Source of the DNA: a bacterium
Lineage (GTDB): Bacteria > Ratteibacteria > UBA8468 > B48-G9 > JAFGKM01
DNA: 58,769 nucleotides
NCBI GenBank assembly: GCA_026414725.1
Contig: JAOAIL010000009.1
Coordinates: forward strand, 1 to 58,769
Reading direction: 5' to 3'
A model generated the notes under the pieces. That model was not told the origin of the DNA. It was given only the letters and a program-made list of their open reading frames with translations, and made no database searches. Positions within the stretch are counted from its first letter, which is position 1, and each line of letters starts with the position of its first letter. Below are positions 54,704-58,017 of the stretch, piece after piece. A program made the translations under genes and the position numbers.

Positions 54704-55639
54704 ATGTCTTTCTCACCTACTAAATTTATATCAGAGAAAGAAAAAGAACTTAAAGTTAAAATAGGCAATTCCAGAGCGATAGTAGCAACATCAGGTGGTG
54801 TTGATAGTATGACCTGTGCAATACTTGCAAAGAAGGTACTGGGTAATAATGTTGTTGTACTTTTTCTTGATGATGGACTTATGAGAGAGGGAGAACCAGA
54901 AGAAGTTAGGAAATTTTTTGAAAGTATGGGAATAAACCTTGAGGTCTGGGATGTAAAAGACAGGTTTTTTGAAGCATTGAAGGGGAAGATAGACCCCGAA
55001 GAAAAACGGATTGCTTTCAGAGATGCCTTTTATAGAACACTCGGACAGGCAGTGAAAAGTTATTCTGTGGATTTTCTTATTCAGGGGACTATTGCAGCAG
55101 ATATTGTAGAAACACAGAAAGGAATAAAAACACAGCACAATGTTTTATCTCAGATAGGACTTAATCCTTCCACTTTTGGACTGAAAGTTGTTGAACCCTT
55201 AAAGGAACTTTATAAACATCAGGTAAGGGAAGTTGCTAAAAAATTGGGATTGCCGAATAAGTTTGCAGAAAGAAGACCCTTCCCAGGACCTGGATTAGCA
55301 ACAAGGATAATAGGAGAAGTTGTTCCTGAAAAGGTAGAAAAGATAAGAAAGGCAACGAAAATAGTAGAGGAGACAATAACAGGTAAAAATGTTTTTCAAG
55401 TTCTTGTAGTTTTGCTTTCTGATAAAGCCACAGGTATAGTGAATGGTAAAAGGATATTGGGGGATATTATTGCCATTAGAGCAGTAGAGTCAAAAGATGC
55501 TCTAACAGCCAGTCCGTGTAAAATCCCATGGATGATTCTTTTCAAGGCGAGGGATAGAATTTTAAAGGAAGTTCCAGGAGTTGTAAAAGTAGTATATGAT
55601 ATAACACCCAAACCACCGAGTACGATAGAGTATATATAA
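54704..55639 (+). CDS. guaA: GMP synthetase ATPase subunit (no glutaminase domain)
   Basis: Aminates XMP to GMP. 311 residues: the PP-loop (SGGVDSM, residues 30-35) and the C-terminal GMP synthetase dimerisation domain (QHNVLSQIG, FAERRPFPGPGLATRI, LPDEI-like VVYDITPKPPSTIEYI). The class I glutaminase domain (about 190 residues), fused N-terminally in most bacteria, is absent. This is the split arrangement of archaea, where a separate GuaA-a subunit supplies ammonia. No such subunit is in the window. GGAGG precedes the ATG by 9-10 bases. A purF-like gene follows after 48 bases. Confidence 0.9.
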   Translation: MSFSPTKFISEKEKELKVKIGNSRAIVATSGGVDSMTCAILAKKVLGNNVVVLFLDDGLMREGEPEEVRKFFESMGINLEVWDVKDRFFEALKGKIDPEEKRIAFRDAFYRTLGQAVKSYSVDFLIQGTIAADIVETQKGIKTQHNVLSQIGLNPSTFGLKVVEPLKELYKHQVREVAKKLGLPNKFAERRPFPGPGLATRIIGEVVPEKVEKIRKATKIVEETITGKNVFQVLVVLLSDKATGIVNGKRILGDIIAIRAVESKDALTASPCKIPWMILFKARDRILKEVPGVVKVVYDITPKPPSTIEYI

Positions 55640-55687: not shown

Positions 55688-57016
55688 ATGAATGAAGAAA
55701 ATTGCGGTGTTTTTGGATTGTACAGAAGCGATAATAAACAGGTAGTAAAAGATTTATACTATGGGATATTTAAACTTCAGCATCGCGGTCAGAGGTATTG
55801 TGGTATAGCAACATCCTCTAATACAGATATCCATATTATTACCCATAAAGGATTTGTCCGTCATACCTTTACAGATATAGAACTTAAGTCACTGAAAGGC
55901 ACATCTGGTATAGGACATGTAAGTTTAAAGGACCGTCAGCCAGTTATATTAATATCCAGAATGGGAAAGTTTGCCATTGCTTTTAGTGGTAATATACTGA
56001 ACAGTGTAAAGTTAAGGAATCAGTTAAAAAATGAAGGGCATTCCTTCAGTAATGAGACAGATATAGAACTTATCGGTAAACTTATCTCTTACGAAAAGGA
56101 TTTTCTTAATGGTATTGTACGATTGAGCGAAAGGGTGAAAGGAGCATACAGTATTGTTATACTTACAAAAGAAGGAATATATACAGCGAGAGACCCTTAT
56201 GGTTTTAAGCCACTTATTATCGGTAAAGGGGCTGGTGCTATTGCTGTTTCTTCTGAATCCAGAGCATTTGATATTTTAGGAATGGAAGTTATCAGAGATG
56301 TTGAACCGGGTGAGGTATTATTTATAAATAAAAAAGGTATTACCACACTTACAAAGATTAAAAATTCCAGTCCTGCCTTCTGTGCTTTTGAATGGGCATA
56401 TACTGCATCTATTGATTCTATTATTGAAGGGATTCCAGTAATAAGAGCAAGAGAAAATTTTGGAAGAAGGTTAGCAGAAAAAGATGGAAAGATATCTGCT
56501 GATTTAGTTGCACCTGTTCCTTTTTCAGGTATTGGATGTGCACTTGGATATCATCATACTTCAGGACTCCCTTATGAAGAGGTCTTCCTTATAGACAGGT
56601 TTGCAAGTAGAAGTTATACACCATTAACACAGGAAAGGAGAGATGAAGAAGCACGGATTAAACTTTCTGTGATAAAGGACAATGTGAAAGGGAAAAGAAT
56701 AGTTCTTTGTGATGATTCTATTGTTAGAGGTACACAGATACAGTTTAAGGTTATGGAGTTGAAAAATGCAGGTGCAAAAGAGGTTCATGTAAGGATTGCC
56801 TGCCCTCCACTTATAGCCCCTTGTTTTTACGGTATATCTACCCGTTCTTATAAGGAACTTGCTGCAAAACGATTTTCCTTGAATGAGATAAAAGAACGGA
56901 TAGGAGCAGATAGTTTGAGATATAATACTCTTGATGACTTTATTGATGCAATAGGATTACCGGCAAATTATCTTTGTCTTTCCTGTTTTACAGGGAAACG
57001 TGTGGAGGAGAGATGA
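55688..57016 (+). CDS. purF: PurF-like amidophosphoribosyltransferase with altered glutaminase site
   Basis: First step of purine synthesis, making phosphoribosylamine. 442 residues. N-terminal NEENCGVFG keeps the nucleophile Cys6 after a short propeptide, and QHRGQ is present. The usual GHVRYxTxG glutamine-binding segment is GHVSLKDRQP (77-85): Arg is replaced by Ser and the loop is shortened. The oxyanion-hole Asn of AHNGN is Ser100 (AFSGN). The PRPP site is intact (LCDDSIVRGTQ, 340-350). The flexible loop (RFASRSYTPLTQER) is also divergent from NRYVGRTF. It is therefore a PRPP enzyme whose glutamine use is doubtful. Confidence 0.85.
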   Translation: MNEENCGVFGLYRSDNKQVVKDLYYGIFKLQHRGQRYCGIATSSNTDIHIITHKGFVRHTFTDIELKSLKGTSGIGHVSLKDRQPVILISRMGKFAIAFSGNILNSVKLRNQLKNEGHSFSNETDIELIGKLISYEKDFLNGIVRLSERVKGAYSIVILTKEGIYTARDPYGFKPLIIGKGAGAIAVSSESRAFDILGMEVIRDVEPGEVLFINKKGITTLTKIKNSSPAFCAFEWAYTASIDSIIEGIPVIRARENFGRRLAEKDGKISADLVAPVPFSGIGCALGYHHTSGLPYEEVFLIDRFASRSYTPLTQERRDEEARIKLSVIKDNVKGKRIVLCDDSIVRGTQIQFKVMELKNAGAKEVHVRIACPPLIAPCFYGISTRSYKELAAKRFSLNEIKERIGADSLRYNTLDDFIDAIGLPANYLCLSCFTGKRVEER

Positions 57017-58017
57017 AAAGTAAAGTTATACTGGAAACAGGAGATGTTTTTGAAGGAGATTTTTTTATAGAGGGAGAAATAAGTTCAGGACAAATAATTT
57101 TTGATACGAGGGTTGTTGGTTATGAGAAGGTTTTTACCAGTCCTGAATATTATGGGAAAATAGTATGTTTCACATATCCACTTATAGGGAATTATGGTAT
57201 AAATTATGAAGATTTAGAGTCAGATACATTATTCCCTTCCGGTATTATCATCTCTGAACATAGTAAGATTTATAGTAATTTCCGTGCAAAATGTTCTCTA
57301 AGGGAATTTTTATGCAATAAGAAAATTCCTGTAGTAGAAGGAGTGGATACCCAGTATATCACAGAAATAATAAGAGAGAATAAAGGGATAAAGGGAGTAA
57401 TTGCTCCTGCAGATGTGGATGAAATAGAAGTTCAGAATATATTGAAAGAAAAGAAAAGATTTTATCTTGATATAAAGAATATTGAAAAAGTAGGGGGTCC
57501 ATATATTGCTGTTGTCCATCCTGCAAAAAGGAGTGAAATAGAAATTTTAAAATCCTTGCCGTTTGGCAATAATTTATTATATGTGAGTTTTTGTTCGGAG
57601 ATTAAAGAAGTACTTAAATGTGCAGAATGGATATATCTTTCTTCTGCTTTTGAAGATGAAGAGACAATTTTCAAAACAGCAGAGATTATAAAAGGATTCA
57701 TAGGTAAGATTCCTATAATAGGTTCTGGTGCAGGTCATCTTGCACTTGCTCTTGCTATGGGTGGAGAAATAGCGAGAGAAAAAGTTAACCATTATGGGAC
57801 AAACCATCCTGTTAAAGATATGGAAAAAAACAGGAAATATATTACATCCCAGGCACACAGTTTTATAGTTAATAAAAATTCACTGATTAACAGAATAAGA
57901 TTTATTAATATTACAGACGGTTCTGTTGAAGGTATCAGTGATAGAAAAAATAAGATTCTCTCTACTACATTTACTCCAGCATTAGATATTGTAAAGGAAT
58001 TTTTTTCTTTTGTGTAA
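57013..58017 (+). CDS. carA: CarA-like carbamoyl phosphate synthetase small subunit, catalytic Cys missing
   Basis: 334 residues starting at ATG 57013 (ATGA overlap with purF, GGAGGAG upstream). The N-terminal CarA domain is intact (LETGDVFEGDFF, FTYPLIGNYGINYEDLESD, VEGVDTQYIT). In the glutaminase domain the nucleophile motif GICLGH is GSGAGH (237-242), so Cys is Gly239. The late FHPE is FTPA (320-323), so the catalytic His is Thr321 and the Glu is Ala323. NHPVKDME and ITSQAHSF remain. It cannot hydrolyse glutamine by the known mechanism but may still brace CarB. carB begins 9 bases later. Confidence 0.9.
   Translation: MKSKVILETGDVFEGDFFIEGEISSGQIIFDTRVVGYEKVFTSPEYYGKIVCFTYPLIGNYGINYEDLESDTLFPSGIIISEHSKIYSNFRAKCSLREFLCNKKIPVVEGVDTQYITEIIRENKGIKGVIAPADVDEIEVQNILKEKKRFYLDIKNIEKVGGPYIAVVHPAKRSEIEILKSLPFGNNLLYVSFCSEIKEVLKCAEWIYLSSAFEDEETIFKTAEIIKGFIGKIPIIGSGAGHLALALAMGGEIAREKVNHYGTNHPVKDMEKNRKYITSQAHSFIVNKNSLINRIRFINITDGSVEGISDRKNKILSTTFTPALDIVKEFFSFV

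Follow-up and report, generated by a model that had tools for sequence, protein, structure and literature searches.

According to the structural study of human CPS1, glutamine is used by all types of carbamoyl phosphate synthetase (CPS) except CPS1, in which the CarA-like domain is retained, the catalytic Cys is replaced, the synthetase domains are intact, and Gln318, a larger residue at the position of E. coli Gly293, blocks the ammonia tunnel (PMC4655335). The CPS of Aquifex aeolicus works from separate GLN, CPS.A, and CPS.B chains, and the small CPS of M. smithii is half-size and can work as a homodimer (PMC6022934). The archaeal GMP synthetase is a two-subunit enzyme whose synthase part carries no fused glutaminase. 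In E. coli, replacement of CarA Cys269 by Gly or Ser abolishes glutamine-dependent synthesis and leaves ammonia-dependent synthesis in place; the C269S structure is available as PDB 1c30.

Our analysis of the window (the whole stretch of 58,769 nucleotides, belonging to genome G000, 1.52 Mb and 96% complete) indicated that its carA1-carB1 pair probably encodes a second, ammonia-dependent CPS, in which CarA1 would be a structural, perhaps regulatory, small subunit. A retained CarA-like part with the catalytic Cys replaced, a larger residue at the Gly293 position, and intact synthetase domains, as in CPS1, recur in this pair. It differs from the single fused chain of CPS1 in being two genes for separate subunits, in replacing the Cys by Gly (within the class of the window genome) or by Ser or Ala (outside it), in having lost the His, the Glu, and glutamine-site residues too, and in its setting among nucleotide-synthesis genes; CPS1 is N-acetylglutamate-activated. 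The carA-carB order, domain make-up, predicted fold, and ATP-grasp residues are those of the E. coli-type enzyme, but CarA1 is without the triad and the glutamine site, almost every CarB1 has Thr in place of the gate Cys232, and CarB1 forms a separate CarB clade. As in Aquifex aeolicus, the canonical cluster of the window genome has an N-terminal-half CarB as its own gene, although the sole C-half detected there belongs to CarB1, in which it is joined to another N-half, and is encoded elsewhere. GuaA1 resembles the synthase part of the archaeal GMP synthetase, but no separate GMP-synthetase glutaminase subunit scored over the family cut-off in the window genome, where the only one over it was fused in a complete GuaA2.

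The CarA-like subunit of the window

The carA1 frame shares four bases (ATGA) between its ATG and the purF1 stop, and nine bases separate its own stop from the start of carB1 (Table 1). The preliminary description had held that the rest of the fold and the carA-carB linkage were kept in a small subunit without catalytic residues, and our data agreed on both counts. Pfam matches covered both CarA domains (CPSase_sm_chain, 1.4e-35; class I GATase, 1.6e-14), and PDB matches included E. coli CarA and human CPS1. The AlphaFold2 model (pLDDT, 84.9; pTM, 0.83) found its best solved-structure matches in E. coli CarA (TMq, 0.82-0.83), with human CPS1 second, and carB adjoined the pseudo-carA in relatives whose contigs extend that far. 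Among NCBIfam models, CarA1 scored over the cut-off of NF009475 (224.9 versus 221) and under that of the glutamine-hydrolyzing TIGR01368 (206.5 versus 307.35).

Table 1. Positions of the genes and codons discussed (in the window unless a locus is named)
Feature	Position	Strand	Remarks
guaA1, GMP-synthetase synthase domain	54704..55639	+	glutaminase domain absent, PP-loop kept
purF1, PurF paralogue	55688..57016	+	Arg73-Tyr74 loop deleted, Asn101 replaced; Cys1 and PRPP loop kept
carA1, pseudo-glutaminase CarA-like small subunit	57013..58017	+	334 aa, open frame, ATG start
Gly239, codon GGT	57727..57729	+	position of E. coli catalytic Cys269
Thr263 of CarA1	57799..57801	+	position of E. coli tunnel residue Gly293
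Thr321-Pro-Ala323	57973..57981	+	positions of E. coli His353-Pro-Glu355; ACT (57973-57975) is Thr321, GCA (57979-57981) is Ala323
carB1, first 247 codons	58027..58767	+	contig ends; residues 243-1083 on C12:21-2537, same genome; CarB1 clade
carB2N, N-terminal-half CarB adjoining CarA2	L004:14478-16106 (C22)	minus	542 aa, ends after first half

Alignment with E. coli CarA showed that CarA1 is without the Cys-His-Glu triad and that the residues initially named at its positions were right (C269 to G239, H353 to T321, and E355 to A323). Most of the residues that bind glutamine were also changed (S47 to E45, G241 to A212, Q273 to L243, N311 to A281, and G313 to S283). The window is an assembled contig from an incomplete genome, but the chance that these residues stem from faulty sequencing or assembly or from a frameshifted alignment is negligible; this was ruled out by relatives from several genera, assembled separately, that share the loss, with Gly for Cys and the His/Glu loss recurring in the separately assembled G001, G002, G003, G008, and G009. 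The motif GSGAGH lies over GICLGH without a gap, and the downstream NHPVKD is in register, so no Cys is concealed by a frameshift. CarA1 appears to keep the CarA fold and operon position while being unable to hydrolyse glutamine.

CarB1, the ammonia tunnel, and selection

The ATP-grasp residues of CarB1 were kept, with R129, R169, E215, and H243 read in the window part and Q285, E299, N301, R303, and the C-half on contig C12. Both ATP-grasp halves were also intact in G008, G004, and other CarB1. A bulky residue (V, L, T, or I) occupied tunnel position 293 in 19 of 20 dead CarA, versus A or G in 41 of 46 Cys CarA (Fisher, 4e-11, a test that ignores shared ancestry). At the tunnel gate, Cys232 of CarB was Thr in 17 of 19 CarB1 versus Cys in 27 of 27 others, a count that likewise ignores shared ancestry. 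In G056, an independent loss, the tunnel residue was still Gly and the gate residue still Cys. The former ammonia tunnel may be closed in CarA1-CarB1, and free ammonia would be the substrate for carbamoyl phosphate, with CarB1 carrying out the synthesis through its intact ATP-grasp sites and CarA1 presumably binding it as a structural, perhaps regulatory, partner. A role of CarA1 as a scaffold or activator is plausible.

In the CarA tree, whose root is not known and in which several Gly/Ser/Ala CarA sit on long branches, none of the 20 was placed within the clade formed by the 46 Cys CarA (branch support 93/96, just under the starred level). The tree of CarB N-halves placed the 19 CarB1 in one clade (support 100/99), 18 of which adjoin a dead CarA, the contig of the remaining one (G004) ending upstream; CarB adjoining Cys CarA, that of E. 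coli included, lay outside it. In the tree of C-halves, those from the class tracked the genomes. G001 and G002 are the closest pair (dS, about 0.4); between them, dN/dS was 0.215 for carA1, 0.092 for carA2, and 0.075 for carB1. The value for carA1 is well below 1, which places the frame under selection, and remained at 0.1-0.24 where dS was unsaturated. carA1 evolves faster than carA2, and its GATase domain is less constrained than its N domain (pN/pS, 0.33 versus 0.10). Selection on carA1 is thus purifying but relaxed, as expected of a kept non-catalytic subunit. Gly239, Gly241, His282, and Asn264 were invariant in the CarA1 alignment, whose members are 31-60% identical to the query.

Distribution, the second CPS set, and competing readings

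A Cys-to-Gly CarA was verified in 11 of the 35 class genomes (G000-G003, G008-G010, G029, G030, G032 with two copies, and G034), and the class survey showed the CarA of G031 to be a fragment ending short of the Cys position. Gly stood at the Cys269 position in 12 of 12 class CarA covering it, so the substitution first noticed in the window was common to every such relative; Ser or Ala was found in eight CarA outside the class. Within the CarA1 group of the window, all relatives had lost triad and glutamine-site residues. At least eight genomes there have Ser or Ala for the Cys, with the His replaced, and this is a lower bound since the survey of 351 other genomes was limited to high-scoring loci. 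The decay is graded: in G030 and one G032 copy, the Cys is the only triad residue lost, His and Glu being kept, and some residues of the pocket differ. The CarA of G056 (L014:1501-2535), with Val, Met, and Asp at the triad, represents a separate loss nested among Cys CarA. As observations of their own, the CarA of G049 (L028:1420-2517) keeps the Cys and has Asn for His353, and that of a Robertmurraya MAG (L156:6001) has Asp for the catalytic Cys with the remainder intact, which in a single MAG may be an error.

An active CarA, and with it a potential source of ammonia, is also present in most pseudo-CarA carriers. Pseudo-CarA was the only CarA found, with one CarB only, in G242 (96% complete), G372 (92%), and G056 (99%, the independent loss). 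Active CarA was also absent from G010 and G032, in which pyrG is present, and from G003 and G030, which are weakened as clean dead-form-only cases because pyrG is missing from both assemblies and contigs may be absent. Active CarA was missing from 7 of 20 carriers, whereas incompleteness would account for 2.0 (p about 0.001 if each genome counts as independent). In G009, carA1 (L039:1425-2471) has a single in-frame TAG, reflecting either decay or an assembly error. In G011, carA1 is deleted, and a small open reading frame (L285:4513-4770) that fuses the PurF1 start to the CarA1 start sits as a scar between guaA1 and a shortened carB1. G005 and G006 are without carA1, the C-half of carB following guaA1 directly. 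These cases together indicate that carA1 is dispensable in some lineages, and the layouts of G011, G005, and G006 that the C-half persists without purF1, carA1, and N1.

The window genome has a second cluster on contig C22, in the order purF2-carA2-carB2N-guaA2-pyrG. The catalytic motif and HPE of CarA2 are intact; therefore, carA1-carB1 is a second enzyme, and CarA1 as part of the sole CPS of the cell was ruled out. A recent family-level duplication of carA2 as the source of CarA1 was unsupported, as all the Cys CarA tested group in a clade that excludes CarA1, and CarB1 forms a clade apart. The C22 cluster yielded no matching CarB C-half; CarB1, on contig C12, has the only one detected in the genome. 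A Cys CarA paired with a half-length CarB, the sole C-half being in CarB1, was seen in G000, G001, G002, G004, G008, and G009 and, outside the class, in G101 and G285; in some members of the class, the N and C parts of CarB are neighbouring genes. We hold more loosely that CarA2-CarB2N would have to borrow the CarB1 C-half or act as a half-size homodimer.

This pairing in eight genomes would also suit an arrangement in which CarA1 is dead and CarB1 still runs on glutamine nitrogen, with CarA2 (with CarB2N) hydrolysing glutamine in one CarB1 complex and CarA1 filling a structural slot. The canonical-adjacent and CarB1-fused C-halves look orthologous, given that class C-halves track genomes, and the Aquifex CPS is built of separate GLN, CPS.A, and CPS.B chains (PMC6022934). 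We nevertheless regard such a shared complex as rather unlikely, since the genomes with pseudo-CarA alone (G242, G372, and G056) suggest that the pseudo-CarA enzyme can stand alone, and the half-size homodimer of M. smithii (PMC6022934) suggests that CarB2N may not need CarB1.

The dN/dS of carA1 above that of carA2, the relaxation concentrated in its linker and GATase domain, the G011 scar, and the G009 TAG could all be expected of a functionless, slowly decaying remnant riding along with a needed carB1. That reading is quite improbable in view of the open frames, the invariant Gly239, Gly241, and His282 in sequences that share 31-60% identity with the query, the low dN/dS where dS is unsaturated, the confident full predicted fold, and the retention of pseudo-CarA in many lineages, including genomes with no other CarA. 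The pocket is remodelled rather than erased, with Gly239, His282, and Asn264 invariant, and a dead PurF is linked to pseudo-CarA, as might be so if the pocket were a ligand sensor or regulatory subunit through which a small molecule controls CarB1 (or PurF1); with no ligand indicated and the remaining pocket residues differing between members, we give this very little credence. A kept dead CarA is favoured because of the family-wide conservation, the purifying selection, the matching CarB clade, and the change at the CPS1 tunnel position. The best reading of carA1-carB1 is that of a putative ammonia-dependent CPS convergent with CPS1 and set in a glutamine-independent operon. The comparison with CPS1 made in the preliminary description, as an independent bacterial example, thus stands as to the kept dead CarA; it is not a single case, given the multi-lineage family and G056, and an intact CarA2 is also present.

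The putative glutamine-independent operon and its wider meaning

The order guaA1-purF1-carA1-carB1 was found in G000, G001, G008, and, with the TAG, G009, and hisH and hisF lie 3' of carB1 in G008 and also in G000 and G001, there on the contigs bearing the remaining carB1. The glutamine site of PurF1 (Arg73, Tyr74, and Asn101) is lost through an 8-residue deletion and an Asn-to-Ser change, and its PRPP-binding loop DDSIVRGT is present. A PurF relative in which Ser takes the place of Cys1 comes after the dead CarA and CarB1 in G242, G372, G285, and G148; where aligned (G285), it has the loop deletion as well. The last residues of GuaA1 read KPPSTIEYI versus KPPATIEWE in GuaA. PurF1 occurs in at least 22 of the 35 class genomes and GuaA1 in 30; both are commoner in the class than CarA1 and were ruled out as its markers. 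Judged from their residues, the PurF and GMP synthetase of the operon look glutamine-independent too.

More tentatively, the lineages concerned may share a conserved operon in which the CPS, PRPP amidotransferase, and GMP synthetase are all glutaminase-less and ammonia-using, alongside a glutamine-dependent set whose half-length CarB would need the C-half of the ammonia enzyme, which would possibly make a CPS with two inputs that share a single carbamate-phosphorylating domain. Searches of the open-licence literature turned up neither a bacterial CarA described as lacking the catalytic Cys nor such a family, which leaves its absence unproven. If borne out, this bacterial family would mirror the human urea-cycle enzyme by convergence and would be a suitable system in which to study how ammonia gets in and what preserves a dead glutaminase domain. 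The glutaminase-less PurF and GuaA linked to it point to a lineage being able to move several amidotransferases over to ammonia at once, and annotations as a glutamine-hydrolyzing CPS small subunit can be wrong and call for caution.

Two further arrangements were seen around CarB. Full-length stand-alone CarB (about 54% to CarB1) occurred in f2, f3, and G028 (L288, L289, L291, L293, and L294) with no CarA in the flanks. In G370, a glutamate-dehydrogenase-like gene (L328:7073-8320) lies immediately 3' of the dead carA-carB1.
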